Shown: piece by piece, positions 1,720-22,863 of the stretch | Layout: each line of letters begins with the position of its first letter | Numbering within the stretch: the stretch's first letter is position 1 | Source: a virus | Reading direction: 5' to 3' (one strand) | Length of the DNA: 25,812 bases | Virus record (IMG/VR): IMGVR_UViG_3300028025_002710 | Span: 1 to 25,812 of that record | Position numbers and translations under genes: made by a program | The notes under the pieces: model-generated | Seen by the model: the letters and a program-made list of their open reading frames with translations, nothing else | Databases searched by the model: none | Told to the model about the DNA's origin: nothing

Positions 1720-3858
1720 TTATACTACGACGATGTCGCCGACTTGGGTCGATTCTGCTCCGACCAAACGATACTTCCATTGAGCACCTGTTGCTGTTGA
1801 CATTAATGGACATAAAATAGTTGAACCAGTAGTTGCTGCAGCAGTTGCTGCAGTAAAGTCTCTTGAAGCTGTAACAAGTGGGTTATCAAGCACTGCAGTA
1901 CCAGCAGCATCACCAGAACTAAACGCAACAGTTGGCGCAACAGTGTACGCTCCAGGATTAGTAATTGTTACAGAAGAAACTGCATACAACACAGCAGCAG
2001 TAGCTGTAGCATTAGTAGCTGGTGTACCAGCCTGTCCTCCAGCAAAGTTTGGAGTTATCACAACTGTTGGAGTAGTGTAACCAGTACCACCAGCAGTTAC
2101 TGTAATGGAAGCTACTGAAAGATCTCGGTTAGCTGTAGCTGCAGCACCAGTTCCGCTACCACCAGTTAAAACAACTGCAACATCAGAACTATATCCAGTT
2201 CCACCAGCAGTTACAGCAATCTCAGTAACCTTTCCTGTTACAGAACTGTAATTATTTGTTGCTGTTGCACCAGTTCCACCACCACCAGTAAATGTCATTG
2301 GAACAGAGGTTCCGTCTAAGTAATAACCAGAACCACCATTGGTAAGTGTAATAGCAGTAACAGCGCCACCAGAAACAGTGGCAGTGGCAGTGGCACCAGT
2401 TCCGCTACCACCGAAAACTACTGTTGGTGCTGTTGTATATCCAGAACCACCATCAATAACGCTAACATCATTTACTGCATAGGTAAGTTTTGCTGTTGCC
2501 GTAGCACCAGTACCAGTTGTTGCAGTAAAGGAAACTGTTGGTGCGCTAATATAACTCGAGCCAACATTTGTAACAGTAATATTCTTAATTGCTCCAGTGG
2601 CACTCATTACTGCTGTGGCAGTTCCACCAGTGCCACCACCAGTAAAGGTAACCAAAGGTGGGATAGTATAACCAGAACCGCCAGCAGTTACAGTAATTGC
2701 ATTAATAAATCCAGAAGTATTAACAGTTCCAGTTGCACCAGAACCAGTGCCACCAGTAAAGGAAACAGTTGGAAATGATCCAGAAGCATAACTACCACCA
2801 TTGGTAATAGTTACTGACTCGACACCAATACTGGCATCTTTAAGAACAAATTCCAATACAGCGTTTGCAGTATTGTTGAATTGATATCTCATACCACGAT
2901 AAACATAGATCGTTGGATTTTCTTCGTTTCCGAGGAAACCATTTCCAGCAACATTTAACTTAGAACCAGTGGAACTAACATTCCATGAGGTTGTGCCTGA
3001 AACACTACCTATCGATATAACGCCAGTGGTAGAGTTATACCCAATGCCACCAGTTCCGCTGATAGAAGCACGAGCACGACCAATTGTGAAATATTGATTT
3101 GTTGTGCCTTCAGCAAGAGCATTGGTTGTCTTTTGCGAAAAATTAAAGTCAAAACGACCAGAGGTATAATATAGATTATTAGTACCTTCAGCAATAGTAT
3201 CCGTATTACCCTGAGTGTATGTCAATGCACCAGTGGTAGAGTTATAAGCCAATGAACCTGAGGCACTAATCGCTGCACGAGCACGAGCAGTGGTAAAGTA
3301 TAGATTTAAGGTGCTTGGTGTATATGTTAAACCAGTTGGAGTTCCTGCAGTTGTAACAATTGCAACGCCAGCATCTACCAGTGTAAACGATGTAGTACCA
3401 TTGGTTACTGAAATTGTATAAACTTTTCCAGTTGTGTAGCCAGTGATAGTTCCAGTTCCACCCAACGTACCAGTAATTGTAACTGTTTGCCCCACAGCCA
3501 ATGTTGCGGCAGTACAAGTAAACTGACCAGCAGTGCCTGCAATTGCAACACCAGTTAACACTGGATTATTTGCTGGTTCTGCTATATTTAGACTAGTAAG
3601 TGTCACTGCACCAGTCAATCCATTTACAGAACTAATTGCATCTGTGTTTACATCGTCTGCTGGAATGAATGCTGTACCATTGAACTTAAGAACCTGTCCG
3701 CTAGTTGCACCAGCGATATTAATACTTAAAGTGGATGTGTTACCCAGTGCAGCATAAATTTCGTTGATGTTAGAGTTTAGTTTACCACCAGCATCACGCA
3801 GCGTATCGCCAGTGCGATCGTTCGGTGAAGTTCCTAGATTAATAAGTGATTTTGCCAT
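1720..3858 (-). CDS. Fibre/decoration protein with gp10-like N-terminus and eight GYT beta repeats
   Basis: The 712-residue product begins with the gp10-like module (residues 1-40: PNDRTGDTLR, then KLN and EIYAALG). Next come phage-fibre units of the type LYYTxxRxxxxIS around residues 185-290. They are interrupted at residues 107-179 by a separate beta-rich module. Residues 346-655 are eight repeats of about 38-45 residues with the core ITVTAGGSGYT followed by P-x-V-x-FTGG and a GTGATATA tail. The C-terminal 50 residues end GAQWKYRLVGAESTQVGDIVVV-like sequence, which looks like a compact capping strand set. The ribosome site is TAAGGAACCGAAATG. The GYT repeats also occur in the gp14 homologue of this window. 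They are common in marine phage structural proteins but their ligand is unknown. The likely location is the tail or baseplate, inferred from the N-terminus. Confidence 0.82.
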   Translation of the reverse strand: MAKSLINLGTSPNDRTGDTLRDAGGKLNSNINEIYAALGNTSTLSINIAGATSGQVLKFNGTAFIPADDVNTDAISSVNGLTGAVTLTSLNIAEPANNPVLTGVAIAGTAGQFTCTAATLAVGQTVTITGTLGGTGTITGYTTGKVYTISVTNGTTSFTLVDAGVAIVTTAGTPTGLTYTPSTLNLYFTTARARAAISASGSLAYNSTTGALTYTQGNTDTIAEGTNNLYYTSGRFDFNFSQKTTNALAEGTTNQYFTIGRARASISGTGGIGYNSTTGVISIGSVSGTTSWNVSSTGSKLNVAGNGFLGNEENPTIYVYRGMRYQFNNTANAVLEFVLKDASIGVESVTITNGGSYASGSFPTVSFTGGTGSGATGTVNTSGFINAITVTAGGSGYTIPPLVTFTGGGTGGTATAVMSATGAIKNITVTNVGSSYISAPTVSFTATTGTGATATAKLTYAVNDVSVIDGGSGYTTAPTVVFGGSGTGATATATVSGGAVTAITLTNGGSGYYLDGTSVPMTFTGGGGTGATATNNYSSVTGKVTEIAVTAGGTGYSSDVAVVLTGGSGTGAAATANRDLSVASITVTAGGTGYTTPTVVITPNFAGGQAGTPATNATATAAVLYAVSSVTITNPGAYTVAPTVAFSSGDAAGTAVLDNPLVTASRDFTAATAAATTGSTILCPLMSTATGAQWKYRLVGAESTQVGDIVVV
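1894..2823 (-). repeat. Eight GYT-type beta repeats in the 712-aa fibre
   Basis: The repeats cover residues 346-655. Units start near residues 346, 384, 424, 462, 500, 544, 582 and 627. The consensus is hydrophobic-x-x-(I/V)TVTxGGSGY followed by xxAPTVxFTGGxGTGATATA. The last unit is degenerate (TITNPGAYTV). The same repeat family occurs four times in gp14 (9056-9586), so the module has been exchanged or copied between a fibre gene and a neck gene in one genome. Confidence 0.85.
3322..3540 (-). other. Inserted beta-rich protein module within the 712-aa fibre
   Basis: Residues 107-179 of the 712-aa protein form a self-contained unit starting AGTAGQFTCTAATLAVGQ, with GGTGTITGYT and VYTISVTNGTTSFTL in the middle and ending GTPTGLTYT. 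It separates two halves of a repeat that is intact further on: NIAE…(insert)…NLYFTTARARAAIS compared with IAEGTNNLYYTSGR. I recall similar units in other aquatic phage fibres, which suggests a mobile domain cassette; that is inference. Confidence 0.6.
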
Positions 3859-3867
3859 TTCGGTTCC

Positions 3868-4701
3868 TTAGAGAGATTCTGTCCAATTTTCGTTTACATT
3901 TACAGGGGTTTCTTCTGGTATAGCGCAGATCGGATTAACCGATGCAGCATAACTAGCAATTTGACTATCCGCCACCGCTGGTATATCTTCAGATGCGCAT
4001 GAAGGGTCTGTAGCAGTAAATTCCCCTGCAACTGCCTCAGTGTTATTCAGATTAGCAGTAACAGTTCTAATGTCAGCAGCATTATCGATACCATTGAATA
4101 TATTCAATTTCAGAGTAAAGGTTAGTGTATGTGTAACGAACCTGCGTGTCTGGAAATCCCCATCATAATCATCCTGTACGTTCACACTATTTAGTATAAT
4201 TGGCACATCCTGAACTATCTTCATATCTGGGACAGCGTTGGTAGATAGTGTATATTCTGGTGTAAAGAAAGGTAAGATCTGTTCCAAAATTTGTAGTGCA
4301 TCTTCCTGTGTCTTGGTCAGGATATAAAGCGAGATGTCTAAGTTGTAAGGAACAGGTGAGTACAACTGTTTCTGTTGAGGAACATTATTTACTACAGTTG
4401 AACTACGAATTTGATTCATACGAGCAACCTTGCGAGTTGAGTCGTAGGTATATCCAGTAATCTCAAAGGAGATTCTAGGTAGAGTTGTATAGGTATGATT
4501 ATCTAAGTTTGGATCAGAGTCCAAACGAACCAACCATTTTTCTTTTGGTGCGTATGCCAATGGAACCTGAATCTTTTGATGCAATTCACCAGTGACACTA
4601 CCACCCTTTCTACGCTCTATGTAGATGTTGCTGAACAGTGCACCAAAGGCAATGATTGCCTTGCGGATTGTTCCATGGTAAAATACTTTTCCATTTAACA
4701 T
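3868..4701 (-). CDS. 15: Tail sheath stabilizer and completion protein (T4 gp15 homologue)
   Basis: The 277-residue product is close to the 272 residues of T4 gp15. Recognisable parts are a start with HGTIRKAIIAFGALFSNIY (T4 has a matching RRYATLMGDLFSNIQI), VPLAYAPKEKW (T4: VPITYASKEHF), LPRISFEITGYTYD, a YSPVPYNLDISLYI stretch, and LQILEQILPFFTPEY (T4: FQIVEQILPYFQPHF). Near residue 180 a D-x-DGD-x-x-x-RR segment precedes the final beta strands. In T4, gp15 forms a hexameric ring on the top of the tail tube and sheath and joins the tail to the neck. The gene follows the S8 protease stop by one base, so it is probably translationally coupled. The last 70 residues are acidic and Ala/Thr-rich and poorly conserved. 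Identification is by remembered family sequence, and the many colinear matches make it firm. Confidence 0.92.
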   Translation of the reverse strand: MLNGKVFYHGTIRKAIIAFGALFSNIYIERRKGGSVTGELHQKIQVPLAYAPKEKWLVRLDSDPNLDNHTYTTLPRISFEITGYTYDSTRKVARMNQIRSSTVVNNVPQQKQLYSPVPYNLDISLYILTKTQEDALQILEQILPFFTPEYTLSTNAVPDMKIVQDVPIILNSVNVQDDYDGDFQTRRFVTHTLTFTLKLNIFNGIDNAADIRTVTANLNNTEAVAGEFTATDPSCASEDIPAVADSQIASYAASVNPICAIPEETPVNVNENWTESL

Positions 4702-4702
4702 A

Positions 4703-6976
4703 TTAAGTCGCCCTTGTTATCTGGATGTTGTCCAGAAGTAGTTCGCCACCGATGTATAAACCGCCAGTAGAATCATAAGAACCAGCGATAAACACGAAAG
4801 AATATGTTCCAGCCTCACCAGAATTAATCGTTCTGCTAACCTCAGACCATGAAGTGCCTGAAAATGAATCCGTGCCAGTTGAATCAAGCAATGGAATGTA
4901 TGTCCCTGTTTGGTCCTCTACCATGTATGCATATACGTTATATGCATCACCACCAGGAAGTGCTTTCCACCAGAATTTTAAAGTATCACCAACTCTGAAT
5001 GGAACCGAGAAATCACTATACACTGCTGGACCGTATACAAGTCCATATGCATCCGTAGGAGAGAATCCATTTAGTGTTAGGCGCATGCACTTGGTTTCAC
5101 CAGAAGGTGGTTTATCAACAGATTCAAATGTGTATGAAAAATAATTATTTGGCACATAAACTGTTTGACCAGGACTGCCGTATATACGTGGTGTTGGATC
5201 AACTGGGGTTTGAAAACCAGCAAGAACTGTTGGTGGTAAACTCAATGGATTGTTCTTAAAGTGAATCTGTTGCAATTTAACAACCCATGAAACGATGCCC
5301 TGTTCAAAACCATAGTTGATAAATTCATTTTGTAGTTTTGCTGGAACACGTTTAAAGTTAACTTTAGCATTACCATTGTCACCTTTCCATACCTTTACAC
5401 CAGCAGAAGAAGGTGCAGGGGTTGGAGTACCTCCACCACCGCCTCCACCTCCAGTAGAGGCTGGTTTGTTATTGCTATACGCAACATAAGTATCGCCACC
5501 ATATTGAGATTCTGTATTGGTGTAATCGTTAGTCGATGCAGTTTTATACAGCGTTGCTGTTGCGTTAGCTTTTAACCATGTCTTGAATTGAGCAGGTGTT
5601 GCTGTTAAATTCTTTTGTAGGAAAGTTGCACCGATACCACAAACCTGTGGTGATGCCATGGAAGTTCCTGGAAGGTTAAGTTGAGCAAATGCTGGATTTT
5701 TAAAATATGTCGCTGCAAGATATGTTGGTCCAGTGAACTCGTTGGTACCACTAGTGCAACTTAAAATTTGATCCCCAGCTGCAAAGATATCAACACCTGG
5801 ACCAGCATTTGAGAACGATGCCTTTTTATCAGTAGTCGCATTTTTTGGAGTTGCACTCATTGCACCAACCATTACAGCTTTAGTGCTATATGGGCTAGAT
5901 CCTCTATGGTAATAGATGTTACCACTGACAGAACTTGTCCAGTAATTATTATAATCTATACCACCAGATACATCGATCTTGTGAGTAGAATTTCCTGCAG
6001 CAATACAGACGATAACTCCTTCATCAATTAGTTCATCCAAGTCTGAATCAACAGAAGATACTCTAACTGGACATCGTGATGTTCCAATCATACCTTTATT
6101 AACGTCGTAATTTACACCAGTCCATGGAGTGCCACGGTAATTTCCACCAGTTATAAATCCATATCCTGCTGAATATCCCCAACTCATATTAACAATGGTT
6201 GGACGTTTGCGTCCTAGCGTTGGATCGATTGGTTTATTTCTATGCCAAAGTTTAATTACATCAAAACAATCGTAGATAGAGATACCAGTACCACTATCTC
6301 CACTTCCTTCTAATCCAGCAACCTTAACTGAATAGATCTTAGCATTTTTAGCCCAACCAAAAGTAATGCCAGCTGCGATACCTGCCACATGTGTTCCATG
6401 ACCATTCCAGTCACGATAGTGATTTGCTGACTGTGTTCCTGTTATACCAGATGCCGTGTACCAGTTAATTTGCTGAACACGAGAAACACCATTGGCATCT
6501 TGAAACTCTGGGTGTAATGTATACAATCCAGAGTCATGAATAACTACATCAACGCCAGTGCCATCTGCATCGTAATCATACGTTACTGCATTGGCTACGC
6601 CAGTGCCATATAAGTTAGTTGTGTTGCTATTACGAATCAATCCCCAGTTTACGAAACTACCTGAACTTGGAAAAAACGATTCGCTTTGCGCTGGCTTGTT
6701 AAAGTTTCCATTTTGACTCGCGAACAACTCGATTTGAACATCGTCACGTTGGTCAACTGGAATCTCAACACTTAAAATGCGAGGGTCTTGTTGAAGCGTA
6801 GTAGCTTCTTCTGAGGATAGTAGATAGTGACAGCTACGTAGTGAACCATCTCTGTTGTTTACAATTTCAACTCTGCGTGCTGGCACAAAACCATCAGTAG
6901 ATGATTCGCTTTCAATTTCATTCCAGAATTGATCATAGTCAACTCCTTTATTTAAGACAACAACGTACTCTCTCAT
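4703..6976 (-). CDS. Subtilisin-family serine protease (S8) with I9-like propeptide and C-terminal beta domain
   Basis: The 757-residue product has an intact S8 catalytic set: Asp148 in VVIHDSGL, His193 in NGHGTHVAGIAAG, oxyanion Asn329 in CIAAGNS, and Ser439 in LPGTSMASPQVCG. Residues 1-80 start EYVVVLNKGVDYDQFW and end with HYLLSSEEATTLQQDPRILS, VEIP, the fold pattern of an I9 propeptide/inhibitor. No signal peptide or membrane segment is visible, so it is not exported by itself. A polyglycine linker (about 509-516) and a TPTPAPSS segment lead to a C-terminal domain (about 550-757). This begins NYGFEQGIVSWV and ends LLLDNIQIT, like carbohydrate-binding jelly rolls. The gene sits between a gp10-like fibre and gp15. 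I infer a virion-associated protease that may digest host surface protein or process other structural proteins. It is unrelated in family to the T4 prohead protease gp21. Confidence 0.9.
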   Translation of the reverse strand: MREYVVVLNKGVDYDQFWNEIESESSTDGFVPARRVEIVNNRDGSLRSCHYLLSSEEATTLQQDPRILSVEIPVDQRDDVQIELFASQNGNFNKPAQSESFFPSSGSFVNWGLIRNSNTTNLYGTGVANAVTYDYDADGTGVDVVIHDSGLYTLHPEFQDANGVSRVQQINWYTASGITGTQSANHYRDWNGHGTHVAGIAAGITFGWAKNAKIYSVKVAGLEGSGDSGTGISIYDCFDVIKLWHRNKPIDPTLGRKRPTIVNMSWGYSAGYGFITGGNYRGTPWTGVNYDVNKGMIGTSRCPVRVSSVDSDLDELIDEGVIVCIAAGNSTHKIDVSGGIDYNNYWTSSVSGNIYYHRGSSPYSTKAVMVGAMSATPKNATTDKKASFSNAGPGVDIFAAGDQILSCTSGTNEFTGPTYLAATYFKNPAFAQLNLPGTSMASPQVCGIGATFLQKNLTATPAQFKTWLKANATATLYKTASTNDYTNTESQYGGDTYVAYSNNKPASTGGGGGGGGTPTPAPSSAGVKVWKGDNGNAKVNFKRVPAKLQNEFINYGFEQGIVSWVVKLQQIHFKNNPLSLPPTVLAGFQTPVDPTPRIYGSPGQTVYVPNNYFSYTFESVDKPPSGETKCMRLTLNGFSPTDAYGLVYGPAVYSDFSVPFRVGDTLKFWWKALPGGDAYNVYAYMVEDQTGTYIPLLDSTGTDSFSGTSWSEVSRTINSGEAGTYSFVFIAGSYDSTGGLYIGGELLLDNIQITRAT

Positions 6977-6985
6977 TATTAACCT

Positions 6986-8872
6986 TTAATGTAGGTCTAC
7001 CCATGCTCCGTTGGCATATCCCTGAAATTTATTTGTGGTAGTATTGTAAATCATATCACCATTTCCTGCGGTGATAGCATTTCTTTCTGTTGTAGTTAAT
7101 CTTGCCAGTCTAAATGTTGACTTACTAATAACTGAAACATTACCACCGATTGCTTCTAGATACAGATCCGTATCACTACTTACTGTAGGTGTACCAGATC
7201 CAGCGAGAACGAATTGATCTGCTGTGGTAGTATTAAATGTTACCTGATTGAATGTATTTAGATCTTGATCGAATGGGTTTCCTGCAACAATGGTTTCATT
7301 GATCCACTCTGCACCATTATATTTTAATGTGTTACCCTGTTGTGGTGTTACAATAGTTACATCACCAAGATCGTTTAATAAAGAACTGCCATTGATCCAC
7401 TGTGAGCCATTATACTTTAATGTATTACCACTTGCAGGATTGGCGATAGTCACATCAGTTAAGTCATTTAGCGTTTGAGCACCAGATATTGCTGTGCCAT
7501 TGACCCACTGAACTCCATCATACTTTAATACCTGATTTAGAACTGGTGTTGTTAAAGTTACATCAACCAGATCTCCAAGATTTAATGGAGGATAAACGAT
7601 ATCCTCGAAGTAGAAATTGCCACTTCCATCTGTTGTTAAGTATTGCCCAACATCGCCATCTGGAATACCCAAATCTGTTAAATCATTTGGAACATTCGCT
7701 CTAATCGTTCCATTGGTAATAGTGATTGTGGTTCCATCAATCTTTACACCACCCAATAAAGTAGTGGATGCAGTTGGTAACGAGTATGTACTATTAGCGC
7801 TGATAATGCCATTGTTAATAGTAACAGTACTTCCGTCAACTTTGACGCCACCAAGAACAGAAGTGCTTGCAGTTGGTAATGAATAACTGCTATTGCCACT
7901 AATTACGCCATTGGCAATAGTGATAGTTGTTCCATCAACCTTAACTCCGCCAAGCAAAGTTGTCGTAGCTGTTGGAAGAGAGTAGGTGCTGTTGGCACTA
8001 ATTACACCATTATTAATAGTAACAGTACTTCCATCAACTTTGACACCACCCAATACAGTTGTGGTGGCAGTTGGTAATGAGTAGCTAATGTTACCGCTAA
8101 TTACACCATTATTAATTGTGATAGTTGTACCATCAACTTTGACACCACCCAATAGGGTTGTGGTGGCAGTTGGGAGAGAGTAATTGTTATTACTGCTAAT
8201 GACACCACTATTGATAGTGATAGTTGTACCATCAACTTTGACACCACCAAGAACTGATGTTGTGGCAGTTGGTAGTGTATAGGCATTGGTAGCCACTGCA
8301 CTAATTACACCATTGTTATTAATGGTAATCGTGGTTCCATCAACTTTGACACCACCCAGAGTTATCGTGGTAGCATTTGGAAGAGAGTATGCAGCGGAAA
8401 CAATTCCAGCAGAATCAATTTGCAAGCCAGCACCAATTTTAATACCACCAAGTATGCTTGCGGATGCTGTTGGAAGAATATAAGCAGATCCACCATTACC
8501 ACCACCAGCTGTGTTTTGGTAAGTTCCGTCAGCAAAGTAGATACCAACAGTGGTTGCATCTCCATTTAAGCGTATGGCTTTAGAAGAAACCACCTGTCCA
8601 CCAGGATTGAGGTTAATGTTATTACTTGCAGCAGTTTTTAGTTCGATCGTTGTTGACGAATCTAAGGTAATCTTACCAATGCCACAGGTTTGGATTAGTA
8701 CATCGGAGCCACATGGTGGCGCAATGTTTAATGAGTAATCGCCACAACCATCAAGACCCAACGCAGTATATAACTCTGAAAAGTTAAAGTTAATTTTGTT
8801 TGCGGTTTCTCTTAGGGTGTCGCCTGTGCCATCGTTTGCTGTTGTTCCGATTCTAATTATTTTTCTTGACAT
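6986..8872 (-). CDS. Repeat tail fibre with gp10-like N-terminus
   Basis: The 628-residue product starts with the gp10-like module (residues 1-40: TANDGTGDTLR, KINFNFSELYTALG), the closest of the three in this window to T4 gp10. Residues 131-393 are eight LGGVKVDGTTITI repeats, five of which are spaced exactly 33 residues apart. Residues 432-529 are three LxDVTIxxPxxGNTLKYNG repeats with WING endings. The last 45 residues (RLTTTERNAITAGNGDMIYN, then FQGYANGAWVDLH) are a common ending of phage fibre proteins. The ribosome site is AAGGATCCAAGATG. It directly follows gp14 and precedes the S8 protease. A trimeric beta-rich shaft is likely; attachment to baseplate or neck is inferred only from the N-terminus and from gene order. 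Confidence 0.87.
   Translation of the reverse strand: MSRKIIRIGTTANDGTGDTLRETANKINFNFSELYTALGLDGCGDYSLNIAPPCGSDVLIQTCGIGKITLDSSTTIELKTAASNNINLNPGGQVVSSKAIRLNGDATTVGIYFADGTYQNTAGGGNGGSAYILPTASASILGGIKIGAGLQIDSAGIVSAAYSLPNATTITLGGVKVDGTTITINNNGVISAVATNAYTLPTATTSVLGGVKVDGTTITINSGVISSNNNYSLPTATTTLLGGVKVDGTTITINNGVISGNISYSLPTATTTVLGGVKVDGSTVTINNGVISANSTYSLPTATTTLLGGVKVDGTTITIANGVISGNSSYSLPTASTSVLGGVKVDGSTVTINNGIISANSTYSLPTASTTLLGGVKIDGTTITITNGTIRANVPNDLTDLGIPDGDVGQYLTTDGSGNFYFEDIVYPPLNLGDLVDVTLTTPVLNQVLKYDGVQWVNGTAISGAQTLNDLTDVTIANPASGNTLKYNGSQWINGSSLLNDLGDVTIVTPQQGNTLKYNGAEWINETIVAGNPFDQDLNTFNQVTFNTTTADQFVLAGSGTPTVSSDTDLYLEAIGGNVSVISKSTFRLARLTTTERNAITAGNGDMIYNTTTNKFQGYANGAWVDLH
7286..7579 (-). 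repeat. Three LKYNG repeats in the 628-aa fibre
   Basis: The repeats cover residues 432-529. Three units of about 33 residues read LGDLVDVTLTTP, LNDLTDVTIANP and LNDLGDVTIVTP. Each is followed by xxxxxLKY(D/N)G and (Q/E)W(V/I)N. The second and third are closest to one another, which suggests a late duplication. This type of unit is common in phage fibre shafts. Confidence 0.8.
7694..8482 (-). repeat. Eight-unit 99-bp repeat array with a two-unit (198-bp) higher-order pattern
   Basis: The array encodes residues 131-393. Units begin at residues 131, 162, 198, 231, 264, 297, 330 and 363; the last five starts are exactly 33 residues apart. Units at 231, 297 and 363 share LLGGVK(V/I)DGTTITI. Units at 264 and 330 share VLGGVKVDGSTVTINNG and ISANST. 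The DNA for the units at 264 (7985-8083) and 330 (7787-7885) is also very alike, with most differences synonymous. This indicates duplication of a two-unit block by unequal recombination. Confidence 0.85.
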
Positions 8873-8881
8873 CTTGGATCC

Positions 8882-10141
8882 TTAACCATTGGTCTTCGTA
8901 GTACTGTTAATACTAGTCGTTTCGCTATCGTACAAATCTGGGTAATCACCAGTTACGATATCCCCGAATGGATTGCTAGCATTAAATACTACTGTTGTAG
9001 ATTCATCTTTAAATTTATTATTATCACCATATGAGTCGACACGATCTATATTTATTTCAATGATCGCAGTTCCAGTGGCTCTAATACCCAGTGGAGCAGG
9101 AATACTTACTGCTGGAGCAACTGTGTATCCAGATCCTGCGTTTGTGATAGTGAGTGCAGTAATAGAACCATTAACAACTGTTGCAGTGGCTGTTGCACGA
9201 ACACCACTGGTTGGTGCAGCAATAGTAATGATCGGTGCAGTTCCGTAGAAATTACCAGCATCTTGTATTGTGAATCCTGTAACCTTGCCACCAACAATAG
9301 TGGAACCGATAGTTGCTTGTCCTGTTGCAAGATCTTGAGTTAGTGGTGCAGAGATTGTAACTGTTGGTGCGCTGGTATATCCATTGCCACCATTGTTGAT
9401 TACAATTTCCGTAACCTTACCGTAGTCAATTTCTGTATAGCAGTTGTCATTATCATCACCCTTGTAGATGACGGCAGTAGCTGCTGCACCAACACCAAAG
9501 TTAGTGCTAAAGGTAACTGTTGGAACTGTTAGATAACCCATACCCATATTTGTTAGATTCACTGATGTTACCTTTGCGGAACCAGTTCTAGGGATATCTG
9601 TATCAAAGGACTTGAGTGTTTCAAATACGTCAATATCCTTAACTCCAGTGTCAATATGCTCAGAAGAGTACTGAAATAACTCGACTTCTAGCGTATATAC
9701 GTACAATCTACCAAGTTGGTAGAAAGGGTCTTGGTGTTTGACGAACTTGATCTCAAACAAACCTTTGGATAATGGAAAGTAAAGCAGGTCGCCCTCGCAT
9801 GGACGATTGGGTAGAATGGTTTGACCGAAACGACCAATGAGTTGATCCCAACGACGACGAGCAACAGTAAGTGTTGCTGTTTGTTCCATCATTAAACCAA
9901 ACTTCTGGATAAACGCACCCTGACCTTCAAAGCCAGTTACGTTTTCCATATACATCTCGATTGGGTATGCGGATTTGAATTCGCTAAGTCTATCTTCGCC
10001 GAGGATCTCGTCTTTGCCAACAAGCGTTCTTGGAATGTAATAGAATTCTTGTCCGTAGATGGACAGAGACTCAACGATCAGATCTTCAATGAGAAACTGT
10101 TCGTTCTTTGTTCCATGGCTAAAGTAGACATTGCGAGCCAT
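8882..10141 (-). CDS. 14: Neck protein gp14 homologue with inserted GYT repeats
   Basis: Residues 1-180 match T4 gp14: LIVESLSIYGQEFYYIPRTL (T4: VAESIQMRGVECYYVPREY), EILGEDRLSEFK, GDLLYFPLSKGLFEIKFV (T4: GDLIYFPMDNSLFEINWV) and QDPFYQLGR (T4: YDPFYQLGQ). T4 gp14 works with gp13 at the neck, joining the DNA-filled head to the tail. At 419 residues this protein is far longer than the 256 of T4. The extra length is residues 186-362, which hold four GYT repeats (cores VNLTNMGMGY, IVINNGGNGY, TIQDAGNFY, TITNAGSGYT). After the repeats, residues 363-400 return to a gp14-like tail with FNASNPFG (T4 ends with FESNPFDN). The repeats thus sit inside a conserved protein and may decorate the neck surface. 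The gp13 stop lies one base before this gene's partner start, giving tight coupling. Confidence 0.92.
   Translation of the reverse strand: MARNVYFSHGTKNEQFLIEDLIVESLSIYGQEFYYIPRTLVGKDEILGEDRLSEFKSAYPIEMYMENVTGFEGQGAFIQKFGLMMEQTATLTVARRRWDQLIGRFGQTILPNRPCEGDLLYFPLSKGLFEIKFVKHQDPFYQLGRLYVYTLEVELFQYSSEHIDTGVKDIDVFETLKSFDTDIPRTGSAKVTSVNLTNMGMGYLTVPTVTFSTNFGVGAAATAVIYKGDDNDNCYTEIDYGKVTEIVINNGGNGYTSAPTVTISAPLTQDLATGQATIGSTIVGGKVTGFTIQDAGNFYGTAPIITIAAPTSGVRATATATVVNGSITALTITNAGSGYTVAPAVSIPAPLGIRATGTAIIEINIDRVDSYGDNNKFKDESTTVVFNASNPFGDIVTGDYPDLYDSETTSINSTTKTNG
9056..9586 (-). repeat. Four GYT-type beta repeats inserted in gp14
   Basis: The repeats cover residues 186-362 of the gp14 homologue. Unit cores fall at about residues 191, 243, 287 and 327, each followed by an xAPxVTIxAP strand and an Ala/Thr-rich turn. 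Compared with the eight units of the 712-aa fibre these are more divergent and carry longer loops, for example KGDDNDNCYTEIDYG between the first and second. They lie between the gp14 core and its C-terminal NPFG tail. Confidence 0.83.
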
Positions 10142-10142
10142 A

Positions 10143-10883
10143 TTATCCCATGAAGAATTCTAGTGGAGCAGACTTGGTCATTAACTCTTGTTCCAGTGAC
10201 TCAACTTCTTGTTTGCCTTCATCGTACAGCTTGTCGCCATCAATGGTTACACCACCAGGAAGTTGTAGACCCTGAAATTTCTTAAGGTTAGTGCCCCACT
10301 GCACTTTAAACAACGCAGTTGTGTAGTGCTTTAACCATGAATCATTATACATTCTTGGGAAGATCTCTGGATCCATGGCACGATAGCATTCTACCAAAAT
10401 GAAATCGCCGACTGCTACATCAGTTACCCAGTTAATGTCTAGGTGTAGTCTATTTTGAAAGCGATTGAATCTATACAACGTATGGCCATTCAACGTAAAG
10501 TCTAGTAGAGCCAAGTGGTTCATTACTGTTTGATAGTAAATGATTGATGTAGAAGTTAGATCGTACAGATCGTTTAAACGCAACTGGTACTGAAGATCAA
10601 AGATGTTTTTAGAACCGCCAGTACCAGTGGTAACTGGGTAAACTTTAGTTACACCATAGATTAAATCTGATAGTGGGATGTACTTGTTTGTTACATCGGT
10701 AGTAGTCATCTGATGTTTTAGGTATATCTTTTCGATACCATCAGAGTGATAAAGACGCCAGTACTCAATGGCTTCGTCTAGACGATCTTCTAGCTGGTCA
10801 TCATCTACGTTAATCTCGACCACAGGTGCGCCTAAACTGCGTAGACAGTATTCTTTTAGTGCTTCTCTTGTTAAGGTTGCCAT
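10143..10883 (-). CDS. 13: Neck protein gp13 homologue
   Basis: The 246-residue product begins TREALKEYCLRSLGAPVVEI, then NVDDDQLEDRLDEAIEYWRLYHSDG, the characteristic opening of T4 gp13-type neck proteins. Further conserved-looking parts are KQIYLKHQ-like beta strands, YIPLSDLIYGVTKVYPV, LDLNWVTDV-type sequence near residue 150, and YRAMDPEIFPRMYNDSWLKH, where the family ends its core. T4 gp13 has 309 residues, so this version is shorter. In T4, gp13 binds the portal with gp14 so that the tail can attach. It is followed after one base by gp14, the same order as in T4, which supports both calls. The ribosome site (GGGATAAATATG) is weak, so translation may be coupled to the 113-aa gene just before it. 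Confidence 0.92.
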   Translation of the reverse strand: MATLTREALKEYCLRSLGAPVVEINVDDDQLEDRLDEAIEYWRLYHSDGIEKIYLKHQMTTTDVTNKYIPLSDLIYGVTKVYPVTTGTGGSKNIFDLQYQLRLNDLYDLTSTSIIYYQTVMNHLALLDFTLNGHTLYRFNRFQNRLHLDINWVTDVAVGDFILVECYRAMDPEIFPRMYNDSWLKHYTTALFKVQWGTNLKKFQGLQLPGGVTIDGDKLYDEGKQEVESLEQELMTKSAPLEFFMG

Positions 10884-14379: not shown

Positions 14380-16698
14380 TTATAGACCAGCAGCGTCTAG
14401 ACGTGCCTTTAGTGAATCGTTTTGTGCTTTGAGTTCTTTGATAGCGTTAATCATATACCATGTCAGGTTATCTGTATCAACAGACATAACTCCTGTACTT
14501 TCAGTCTTAACGCACTCAGGTAAAATTGCTTGAAGTTCTTGAGCAATAACACCCAACTGAACACCTTCTTTTTGAATCACACAATTTTTTGACAACTCAG
14601 TGACTTCATGTTCTGCACGATATTCGAAGTTACGAACACGAACCGAATTGATTACGCTTAAACCAACATTGTTATCAATGATATTTTTCTTTAAGCGTTG
14701 GTCAGATGTTGTCGACCAAGTTGATGAATTATTGCCTTGATAGACTCCACCACCACCAGTTCCTGCAGTACCACCTGGAGCAATAAAACCAGTGCCAGAG
14801 CCTCGACCAACAATAGTTCCGTTACCACCAATGACTACTTCATTTCCGCTAGTGCCACTAGCAGGAGATACACCAAATCCAATTAAGATATTTCCACTAC
14901 CTGTTGTCAGGCTGACTGCTCCCCATCCTGATTCATCACCAATACAAGTATTTGCAGTTCCAGTTGTTACTTGTCTGCCAGCACCATAACCTAAAAATGT
15001 GTTATTTGCACCAGTAGAAGCTGCACCTGCCAAATATCCAACTGCAGTAGAGTATTGTGATGTAGTGTTATTTAATAAAGCTGCAGCACCGATTGCCACA
15101 TTGTAAGAGCCAGTTGTGTTGTTTCGACCTGCATATCCACCAATGAATGTGTTATCAATACCTGTAGTAGTAGATCTGCCAACATAGAAACCAACCATAG
15201 CAGAGCCGTAATTCTCTCCTGTAGAGTGCGAGTACATAGCCTCAAATCCAACTGCAACAGCGTATCCGCTTGACCCTTCTGAACGAAGAGCGCCAGAACC
15301 AATGGCAACCATTGAGCCAACACTCGTTGCGCTGTACAGAGCCTGATAACCTAAAGCAGTATTATTAGATGCTGTGGTGTTTGAAAACATGGCTTGAGTA
15401 CCAACTGCTGTATTGGTTGCGCCTGTTGTGTTGTTGCGCAGTGCTTGATAGCCGACAGCGACGCTGTTAGAAGCAGTCGTATTAAGCGCAAGAGAACCCA
15501 TACCAATAGCAGTGTTTTGACTTCCAGTGGTGTTGCTGGAAATTGCACTTCGTCCAAGTCCTGTGTTGTATGTACCTGATGTATTGGTTGACATATTGTC
15601 ATGACCAATAGCAGTGTTTTCTACTCCAGTAGTGTTGCTATACAAAGCACCATTGCCCATGGCTACGTTGCGATTACCAGTGGTGTTTGAATATAGTGCT
15701 TGATAACCAAAAGCGTTATTTAAATCACCAGTAGTGTTGCTATAACCAGCCTGATAACCAACAGCAGTATTATTAGATGCATTACCAGTTGCAGTTCCTG
15801 TACCAGTACCTGCGTTGGTTGCAGTGAATACTACACCAACAGTATTTGAAGCTGCTCCATGGGCAACAAAGTTTGTTGTACCCAATGAAACGATTGTATA
15901 AGAAGCACCAGTGACGAATGCACCAGCTGTAACAGTACCACCAAAAAGTGCACCAAAGCCGACAGAAGTATTGTTAGATCCTGCAGTACTATTGTATCCT
16001 GCATTTCCACCTAAACCAGTGTTATTAGAACCAGTGACATTTAATCTTAAAGCGGAACGACCAATACCAGTATTAGTTTCACCAGTCGTATTAGCAAACA
16101 TGGCACGATCGCCAATTGCTGTGTTGCTTGCACCAGTGGTATTTACACCTAAAGTTGCTACACCCATGGCTACGTTATTAGTTCCAGTGGTGTTTGCGTA
16201 TAAAGCAGATTGTCCGACTGCAGTTATTGCTGAGCCAGTCGTATTGCTATATGCAGCTTGAAAACCAACAGCTGTATTTCCAGATGCTGTGGTGTTTGAG
16301 TAAAGAGTTTGATGGCCAACTGCTACGTTATCATAACCAGTTGTATTGGAAAATAAACCAAACTCACCAAACACATTGTTGCGATATCCAGAGGTGTTTG
16401 CCACCAAAGACTGTTTACCGAATGCATTGTTGCGATATCCATCAGTATTAACTAATAGCGCATTCCAACCAAATGCGGAATTGCTATAGCCAGTAGTATT
16501 AGCGTTTAAAGCACTAGCACCCACCGCAGTGTTAGTAGATACAGCACCCGCACCACGACCAACACCTACACCATAAAAACTAAAATCCGCAGTGGTAATT
16601 AAATCTGCAGGTACTAATGTGCCGTCAGTAACATTGCTCCCAGTAATAGGAACAGATATTGCTGGCATTGCAGCGACTTGAATTCTAGTTAATGGCAT
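14380..16698 (-). CDS. Repeat tail fibre with C-terminal S74 intramolecular chaperone
   Basis: The 772-residue product has a short N-terminus (MPLTRIQVAAMPAISVPITG), then about 30 copies of a 17-residue unit NTAxGxxALxxNTTGxx from residue 56 to about 610. These resemble the head repeats of trimeric YadA-like adhesins and likely form a left-handed trimeric beta prism. Residues 255-304 are an unrelated insert. After a glycine-rich hinge (GGTAGTGGGGVYQ) the final part (about 655-772) is an S74 chaperone domain: WSTTSDQRLKKNI with Ser665 and Lys670 as the probable self-cleavage pair, GVIAQELQAILPECV, and a terminal coiled coil (INAIKELKAQNDSLKARLDA). In this family the chaperone drives trimer folding and is then released. 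It sits between the 174-aa and 105-aa small proteins. The ribosome site is AGAAGAG, more distant than usual. Confidence 0.93.
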   Translation of the reverse strand: MPLTRIQVAAMPAISVPITGSNVTDGTLVPADLITTADFSFYGVGVGRGAGAVSTNTAVGASALNANTTGYSNSAFGWNALLVNTDGYRNNAFGKQSLVANTSGYRNNVFGEFGLFSNTTGYDNVAVGHQTLYSNTTASGNTAVGFQAAYSNTTGSAITAVGQSALYANTTGTNNVAMGVATLGVNTTGASNTAIGDRAMFANTTGETNTGIGRSALRLNVTGSNNTGLGGNAGYNSTAGSNNTSVGFGALFGGTVTAGAFVTGASYTIVSLGTTNFVAHGAASNTVGVVFTATNAGTGTGTATGNASNNTAVGYQAGYSNTTGDLNNAFGYQALYSNTTGNRNVAMGNGALYSNTTGVENTAIGHDNMSTNTSGTYNTGLGRSAISSNTTGSQNTAIGMGSLALNTTASNSVAVGYQALRNNTTGATNTAVGTQAMFSNTTASNNTALGYQALYSATSVGSMVAIGSGALRSEGSSGYAVAVGFEAMYSHSTGENYGSAMVGFYVGRSTTTGIDNTFIGGYAGRNNTTGSYNVAIGAAALLNNTTSQYSTAVGYLAGAASTGANNTFLGYGAGRQVTTGTANTCIGDESGWGAVSLTTGSGNILIGFGVSPASGTSGNEVVIGGNGTIVGRGSGTGFIAPGGTAGTGGGGVYQGNNSSTWSTTSDQRLKKNIIDNNVGLSVINSVRVRNFEYRAEHEVTELSKNCVIQKEGVQLGVIAQELQAILPECVKTESTGVMSVDTDNLTWYMINAIKELKAQNDSLKARLDAAGL
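14824..16533 (-). repeat. About 30 in-gene 51-bp repeats (17-residue YadA-head-like units)
   Basis: The array covers residues 56 to about 625 of the 772-aa fibre. From residue 56 to 243 the units keep an exact 17-residue spacing (56, 73, 90, 107, 124, 141, 158, 175, 192, 209, 226, 243). After an insert the spacing resumes exactly from residue 310 to 463. The last units (about 497-610) drift by one to four residues. The consensus is N(T/V/N)A(V/I/F)G, then A(L/M)(Y/F)xNTTG. Asn and Thr occupy the turn positions in nearly every unit. Confidence 0.9.
15787..15936 (-). other. Inserted 50-residue module interrupting the 17-residue repeat array
   Basis: Residues 255-304 read VTAGAFVTGASYTIVSLGTT, then NFVAHGAASNTVGVVFTATN and AGTGTGTAT. 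The insert enters in the middle of a repeat unit after ALFGG and the array resumes with NTAVGYQAGYSNTTG at residue 310. Its YTIVSLGTT-NFxxxGAxxxTVGxxFTATxAGxGTGTA pattern is one I recall from many phage structural proteins, so it looks like an acquired beta domain protruding from the shaft. Confidence 0.65.
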
Positions 16699-20766: not shown

Positions 20767-22863
20767 TTACTTTGCTTTGAGTGCAGCGATTTCCACTGCC
20801 TGTGCGTCAACAATTGCTTTGAGTTCTTGGATTGCAGCAGTTAAAGTAGCCACTAAGAATGACGTGTCAACACCTTGATAGACTGGATCACCTTTTGAGT
20901 CTACTGCATCTTTTTCACCCGTCACACACTCAGGAACTATTGTTTGCAACTCGTGGGCAATGAAACCTTCACCATTAGAGTTATTAGAGTTCCATTTGTA
21001 AGTTACTGGTTTAAGTTGGGCTACTTTAGCCAATGCGTCTGTCATAGGAACAATAGTATTTTTCAAACGATAGTCTGAAGATGTGTTATATGCAACAGTT
21101 GTGCCGTTATGTGTAATTGAACCACGATTGCCTGAGCCATTGCCCATGAAAGCAACTAATGTTCCGCTAACAGCTTCGTTTGCTACTGCCAATGGTGTAC
21201 CGCTGTCTGCTCTTGTAGTAATTCTTCCCAATGAACCAGAACCAGCACCACCAGCTATTAAATTACCATCTTTATCAAATCTTCCCGCCTCATACGCACT
21301 TCCTGATGTATTGGTTACGTAAAAAGCTAGTTGAGAAGCATTGCTAGACAAATAAGAATTTAAGGCTCTAATACCTGCATAGATATTAGGGTCGTTTGGT
21401 CCAATTAAGTATCCACCACTCACAACAGGAGTCCCTGACGTGCCATTTGCGGTTTGATTCTGATACGTAATACCGTTGACAACCAGCTTGCCACCGCTAC
21501 CTGCGTTTGTATATCCGATTAGTACTTCACCTGCTGCCGTAATACGCATCTTCTCTGTAGGATTCGTTGCTGGAGCACCAGCACCTTTTGTCAAGAATGT
21601 TAATGCTGTTGAGTAGTCTGTAGCACTGTTTGTGCGGTATGCCTGAATTGCTGCAGTACCTATATCTGAACCGATCTGGAATTGAATACCTGCATAACGA
21701 GTATTGTCACCACCAGTATCAGTAGTGTTTCTAATATACAAGTTAACACCTGAAGATGCAACAGAACCAGTTTGAGCAATATTACCAGTTGTTGGATCAA
21801 TCGATAACTTAGTTGACCCATTGTACATAAAGAACAATTCGTCATTGGCATTGGAGAATGTGCTTTGAATATCCCAGTAGTTGGTATCAGCCTGCATACG
21901 GATGTATGGGTTGTTACCTGCACCACTTGTTTTAATTTGTAGGTAAGGGTTGCCAGAGGTATTGACGTAGATGTTACCAGCAACTTCTAACTTTTGAGAA
22001 GGAGCAGTGGTGCCAATACCAAAGTTGCCAGTATTAGTGATTCTAATAGCTTCGCTACCAGATGGAGCGAATGCAATTGCTGGATCAGTTCCAACTGCTC
22101 CAGTTGCAAGAGTATAAACAGGAGTACTGTCTAATACAGATGCTTGGAAGTACATTCTCTTAACCTGACCAGCAGTATTTCTTGCGGTAAGGGCTAATGG
22201 ATTAGAAGCAGAAGATGATGCACCTGTATCGATTTCCGTACGGTATGCATTTAGTATCGTAGAAGAGGGAAGACCGATACCAAAGTTACCCTGCGCATCC
22301 CAGTAAGGGAATGTCGAAGCCATTTTGGCACGAGTAATCGAACCATCAGCAACAGTATCAATGCTTACTTTTTCTTTGACCAACGTGTATACGTCGATCT
22401 CAGCACCGCTATCTGGTGCACCATTAAAGTTAATTGTTGAACCACCAGATACGTAGTTATTACCCGATCCTTCACGTTGTAGGATACCGTCTACGAATAC
22501 CATGATACCTGCAGGAACTACAGGTGGATCTGTTAAGGTAAACAGCGTAGTAGTGCCGTCACCTGTTAGTGTTTGTTTGGTTGTTTCTTGACCAGCTGCA
22601 CGTGGAGTGGTTAACTGTTTGCCAAGATAGATGATATAAGTTGTAGTGCCAGTAACTGGTGCTTCAGAGAACACGATCGATTGACCACCACCAGACACGC
22701 TATAAGCTACTCCAGGCTCCTGCAAGACTCCACCATACACTACCATCAAGGAATTGGCAGAGCCAACTGCGAATGTAAGTGTAAAGGTGGTTGTGCTTGA
22801 GTCAGCAGTTAGTACCTGCTTCTCAAACATTCCTATGTCAACTGATCTACCGATATAAGCCAT
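20767..22863 (-). CDS. Tail fibre with duplicated N-terminal domain and C-terminal S74 chaperone
   Basis: The 698-residue product begins MAYIGRSVDIGMFEKQVLTA. Residues 15-80 and 96-160 are two copies of one beta domain (KQVLTADSSTTTFTLTFA … GVLQEPGVAYSVSGGG, and KQTLTGDGTTTLFTLTDPP … DGILQREGSGNNYVSGG). A bridge VDTVADGSITRAKMAS-like segment follows. The shaft has the unit GNFGIGTTAPSQKLEVAGNI, common in S74 fibres. The end (about 590-698) is the chaperone: NTSSDYRLKNTIVPM with Ser596 and Lys601 five residues apart as in active members, GFIAHELQTIVPECV, and a terminal coiled coil (LTAAIQELKAIVDAQAVEI). Self-cleavage after trimer assembly is expected from the family. It directly follows the 92-aa protein with a 3-base gap. 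Confidence 0.93.
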   Translation of the reverse strand: MAYIGRSVDIGMFEKQVLTADSSTTTFTLTFAVGSANSLMVVYGGVLQEPGVAYSVSGGGQSIVFSEAPVTGTTTYIIYLGKQLTTPRAAGQETTKQTLTGDGTTTLFTLTDPPVVPAGIMVFVDGILQREGSGNNYVSGGSTINFNGAPDSGAEIDVYTLVKEKVSIDTVADGSITRAKMASTFPYWDAQGNFGIGLPSSTILNAYRTEIDTGASSSASNPLALTARNTAGQVKRMYFQASVLDSTPVYTLATGAVGTDPAIAFAPSGSEAIRITNTGNFGIGTTAPSQKLEVAGNIYVNTSGNPYLQIKTSGAGNNPYIRMQADTNYWDIQSTFSNANDELFFMYNGSTKLSIDPTTGNIAQTGSVASSGVNLYIRNTTDTGGDNTRYAGIQFQIGSDIGTAAIQAYRTNSATDYSTALTFLTKGAGAPATNPTEKMRITAAGEVLIGYTNAGSGGKLVVNGITYQNQTANGTSGTPVVSGGYLIGPNDPNIYAGIRALNSYLSSNASQLAFYVTNTSGSAYEAGRFDKDGNLIAGGAGSGSLGRITTRADSGTPLAVANEAVSGTLVAFMGNGSGNRGSITHNGTTVAYNTSSDYRLKNTIVPMTDALAKVAQLKPVTYKWNSNNSNGEGFIAHELQTIVPECVTGEKDAVDSKGDPVYQGVDTSFLVATLTAAIQELKAIVDAQAVEIAALKAK

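Follow-up and report, generated by a model that had tools for sequence, protein, structure and literature searches.

The window analysed here, the whole 25,812-nt stretch of DNA from an uncultured T4-like virus in IMG/VR record IMGVR_UViG_3300028025_002710 (positions 1 to 25,812), carries on its minus strand a gene for what is, by its sequence, an intact subtilisin-type protease with predicted catalysis. The gene lies directly behind a fibre gene, and the 44-aa C-terminal tag of that fibre predicts, in comparisons of sequence, the presence of the protease. We give about an even chance to the view that the protease is a fibre-linked virion zymogen that cuts host-surface protein. The protease family itself is already known but little studied (phrog_9158). 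Our search of the open-access literature (most subscription journals lay outside this scope) yielded no paper on the protease-fibre pairing and no description of the combination of a Gly8 linker with a C-terminal sandwich, of the location between gp14 and gp15 or, most notably, of the fibre-tag linkage.

The minus strand of 4703-6976 is occupied by one ORF of 757 aa (ATG at 6976, stop at 4703), and 38 stops are present on the plus strand of the same interval. Pfam Peptidase_S8 matched protease residues 139-479 (5540..6562) with an E value of 2.7e-31 and 109.4 bits against a cut-off of 21.8. The active site reported in the earlier note was verified codon by codon and in alignments: Asp148 (6533..6535), His193 (6398..6400), the oxyanion Asn329 (5990..5992) and Ser439 (5660..5662), all on the minus strand. 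An AlphaFold2 model built from 46 window and locus sequences reached a mean pLDDT of 76; a single-sequence model (pLDDT 35) was of no use. The catalytic domain in the former is proteinase K-like, and Foldseek searches with the model returned proteinase K and aqualysin (E about 1e-18 to 1e-16, TM by target about 0.8) as well as 3afg, the pro-form of a Thermococcus subtilase. The Asp-His-Ser order, the oxyanion Asn and the S8 fold place the protein in peptidase family S8, and serine peptidase activity is predicted. Secreted S8 subtilases of the proteinase K/aqualysin type with an I9 propeptide have the fold, catalytic residues and propeptide topology in common with the window protease; unlike them it is phage-encoded beside fibre genes, and the identity in structure alignment is about 21-26%. 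It also differs from them in having no signal peptide, as the earlier note had read it: the maximum 15-residue Kyte-Doolittle mean is 0.11 and there is no hydrophobic N-terminal stretch.

A degraded active site in close relatives had been named in the earlier note as an observation that would refute its reading. No such decay was found, since the four residues were invariant in both sets of relatives. Among covering sequences of the first set D148 was identical in 85/85, H193 in 85/85, N329 in 82/82 and S439 in 79/79; in the second set, examined by profile alignment, all four were kept in 94 of 94 complete ORFs, with 3 truncated or partly aligned ORFs left out. The two sets overlap in part and together comprise about 170 ORFs. 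The idea of a pseudo-enzyme, raised by a strict motif search that seemingly missed residues in 30 relatives, was rejected; profile alignment traced these cases to motif misses or truncations. In some relatives (L188, L226, L190, L234, and L241) the stretch between the catalytic Asp and His is enlarged by roughly 80 to 300 aa, inserted near window residues 158-161 and adjoining the active site. Some have further inserts, two of them cupredoxin-like in look. At one locus (L075:3964-5464) the protease gene is broken into three ORFs behind a tagged fibre, by frameshift, assembly error, or decay.

Upstream of the catalytic domain lies a putative I9-like propeptide domain (residues 1-75, 6752..6976). 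The I9-like character proposed in the earlier note held at the level of fold: residues 2-71 of the AlphaFold2 model follow the beta-alpha-beta-beta-alpha-beta topology of I9 propeptides (pLDDT 67-92 by ten-residue block). The sequence match is weak and below the Pfam cut-off: at E 1 the window protein itself did not hit I9, and 3 of 48 family members did (best 0.027). The best PDB profile match of the domain was 8c4z_A, a protease propeptide chain, at E 0.74, and 11 columns of the domain are invariant among 17 relatives. We weakly assign the domain to I9 by its modelled fold and these slight sequence matches. Autocleavage would fall in the junction at residues 76-105 (6662..6751), a low-confidence linker in the model with a conserved QRDD.

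Behind the catalytic domain the polyglycine linker noticed earlier is present as Gly8 at residues 509-516 (5429..5452), within a low-confidence Gly-rich linker that spans residues 507-604 of the model. It is followed at residues 605-757 (4706..5164) by a beta-sandwich predicted with moderate confidence. BFVD structure searches matched phage tail proteins over about 150-185 columns (E about 1e-6 to 1e-5); from their length, these matches would fall on the C-terminal sandwich, whose modelled fold resembles that of phage tail and receptor-binding domains. Pfam and PHROG gave no match for residues 513-757 and PDB sequence searches none for 603-757; the sandwich fits no CBM sequence family, and its likeness to tail proteins is at the fold level. 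The jelly-roll-like C-terminus of the earlier note thus stands as a predicted beta-sandwich in the window protein but is not a common feature of the family, as most relatives come to an end at about 510-530 aa; a C-terminal extension is present in the two closest relatives, L002 and L003, too.

The neighbouring genes, all on the minus strand, were identified by Pfam and PHROG, and they bear out the reported position between a gp10-like fibre and gp15 in a neck/tail gene set. The order is gp13-gp14-fibre-protease-gp15: the gp13 neck protein (head-tail adaptor; 10143..10883, phrog_211, E 3e-42), the gp14 neck protein (head closure), extended by a repeat region (8882..10141; PF11649, E 1.8e-32; phrog_460), a 628-aa fibre with a gp9/10-like N-terminus (6986..8872; PF07880, T4_gp9_10_N, E 1.3e-6), the protease, and the gp15 tail sheath stabiliser (3868..4701; PF16724, E 1.9e-69). 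Gaps of 9 nt and 1 nt separate the protease gene from the fibre stop and from the gp15 start, respectively. Active site, model and gene context together support the earlier description of a propeptide subtilase that has an intact active site and is likely made with virion parts. The upstream fibre contains repeated YSLPTATTxLLGGVKVDGTTITINNGVIS units that are matched by the Pfam Head fiber protein family, and the C-terminal repeats of gp14 are common to the fibre at 1720-3858 and to other virion proteins (phrog_701, phrog_708). Two further fibre-like genes, at 14380-16698 and 20767-22863, have ends of the endosialidase-chaperone type (the first matched by Pfam Peptidase_S74, the second judged by eye), and for this reason an S8 protease and self-cleaving fibres may coexist in this phage.

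Protease residues 2-506 align to positions 6-551 of the phrog_9158 profile (E 6.9e-81). tblastn found homologues in 52 phage records, chiefly of T4-like cyanophages; identities were about 35% or lower, and several homologues are annotated 'subtilisin-like serine protease'; the S8 peptidase of P-HM1/P-HM2 is merely named by Sullivan 2010 (PMC3037559). IMG/VR yielded at least 80 relatives, which reach at most about 60% identity along the whole protein; the close ones come from uncultured T4-like phages only. In some relatives the protease is fused to LamG, Ig-like or cupredoxin-like domains, the last of these matched weakly. The top match among bacterial genomes (L089) was a phage-like contig assigned to a Rickettsiales MAG; it carries the fibre-protease pair plus phage-like genes and is probably a mis-binned phage. 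Apart from it, the one bacterial-genome scan gave weak ordinary-subtilase matches (about 23-43%, over short stretches), and a host-gene origin was set aside with no source found. A search for psbA, as a sign of a cyanobacterial host, found nothing in 24 long contigs from relatives; this says little because all 24 may be fragments.

Next, we examined the pairing with the fibre gene. In 49 distinct loci the gene directly upstream of the protease is on the same strand at a gap of -38 to +24 nt. This gene is fibre-like in almost all relatives, with parts that vary (gp9/10-like, Mtd_N, collagen, glycine-rich). Many of the upstream genes have in common a tag of about 44 aa, xPFRLASFTTTxRNALTAxNGDMIYNTTTNKFQGYANGAWVDLH, which in the window occupies the C-terminus of the fibre (6989..7120, minus strand). 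It was found in 18/49 upstream genes versus 1/516 other genes of the same loci (Fisher p 5e-20). When loci were collected by the tag only, blind to the protease, 78 of 80 held the protease; a scan that started from a divergent tag found it in 62 of 80 loci, and directly after 58 of the 74 C-terminal tag matches with room for it. Tag-less upstream genes are common, many pairs keep the protease without the tag, and the tag is also found in other phage genes without the protease. Among 50,697 deposited phage records it is almost absent (1 match by BLAST with the low-complexity filter on). Tag status is strongly clustered on the protease tree (8-10 changes, in a sample much of which was gathered through the tag), and the linkage is therefore partly a matter of shared descent. 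The sample contained no ORF in which tag and protease are fused, and no conserved linker or break point is seen before the tag, the fibre sequence running straight into it. We concluded that the tag linkage is real; its mechanism is unproven.

Evidence on the virion came from the Synechococcus phage S-SCSM1, whose protein SSCSM1_228 (QFG06492.1, 'baseplate wedge subunit (virion protein)') was the best viral structure match to the window protease. The two have the same N-terminal plus S8 layout, and the SSCSM1_228 gene overlaps the preceding SSCSM1_227, also marked 'virion protein' in the record, by one base. Forty-five virion proteins of S-SCSM1 were identified by MS (PMC9602691). About 48 virion marks were counted in the record against these 45, so the mark is an imperfect copy of the MS list. 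It is unlikely to be a homology guess, because several predicted structural proteins in the record carry none, and it probably reflects detection. Carriage on the particle, one of the possibilities raised in the earlier note, thus gains indirect support from this homologue. Its identity is however only 30%, and at 1411 aa it is much longer, its extended C-terminus bearing LamG-type domains. The proteases of the T4-like cyanophages S-H38, S-CREM1, Sf-FR1, and P-SSM2 (PSSM2_297) align with the N-terminal and S8 parts from residue 1-4 to about 500, and their genes come straight after a gene for a fibre, a tail-pin or a hypothetical protein, with hardly any gap or none. They differ in identity (30-35%) and in not lying between gp14 and gp15; those of S-H38, S-CREM1, and P-SSM2 (551-611 aa) also have shorter C-termini than the window protease. 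P-HM1 PHM1_104 and S-TIM54 UYE97265 place an S8 domain in proteins that adjoin gp13 or sit near the portal gene, but these are giant multidomain proteins with Ig-like domains and an internal S8 domain.

Fibre attachment, activation in the particle and a host-surface substrate are what we infer from these data. The protease, its gene forming one run with that of the upstream fibre, would be synthesised in the cytoplasm as an inactive zymogen whose folding is brought about by the I9-like propeptide. It would be assembled onto the tail, neck, or baseplate region next to that fibre, possibly via the C-terminal tag; upon removal of the propeptide it would cut host-surface protein at adsorption, with the C-terminal sandwich perhaps binding surface sugar or protein. 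We favor this fibre-linked virion reading because of the intact and conserved active site, the gene pairing, the tag linkage, the S-SCSM1 virion mark and the propeptide-like domain in the model, and also because of the fusions to LamG, Ig-like and cupredoxin-like domains and the S8 domains in the giant proteins of P-HM1 and S-TIM54. Counted against it were the distance and larger size of the S-SCSM1 homologue, the inexact count of marks, the shared ancestry of the tag, the tag-less pairs and the lack of a fusion. More tentatively, fibre and protease may form a two-gene module of uncultured T4-like phages in which the small C-terminal fibre tag is the dock or the substrate for a dedicated subtilase.

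The tight pairing with one fibre and the linkage to its C-terminal tag would also fit a maturation protease. During assembly it would cleave the fibre encoded next to it, or a different virion protein, and the tag would be a recognition site or a removable folding piece, much like a self-cleaving fibre chaperone split over two genes. Such an enzyme would be made where fibres assemble, in keeping with the missing signal peptide, and detection in particles fits leftover protease as well, the S-SCSM1 prohead protease bearing the same virion mark. We consider this role less likely than cleavage of host-surface protein, but it is the main competitor: no conserved break point or linker is visible before the tag, many tag-less pairs still keep the protease, and a maturation enzyme does not need added binding domains. 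Subtilases are often broad proteases, and an intracellular enzyme that degrades host proteins or aids lysis, placed by the fibre gene merely through late expression, would require no secretion signal either; the conserved pairing is with fibre genes, not lysis or early genes, and together with the S-SCSM1 mark this makes such a function improbable. The occurrence of S8 domains within large virion proteins of S-SCSM1, P-HM1, and S-TIM54 could point to a mainly structural protein that keeps the subtilase fold without enzymatic use. All complete relatives, even those of about 32% identity, retain the four catalytic residues, which makes that highly improbable.

Known phage tail enzymes mostly cut sugars or peptidoglycan. 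If the fibre-linked virion reading is true, a fibre-paired and always-intact subtilase in many aquatic T4-like phages would point to protein layers of aquatic bacteria as an obstacle to infection; if fibre maturation is true instead, the pair would represent a step in fibre processing that is not known from T4. Through the tag linkage the protease has a concrete, testable partner. Should the two-gene module be real, these phages would bear a protein-cutting enzyme on particular fibres, in parallel to the polysaccharide depolymerases of tail spikes.
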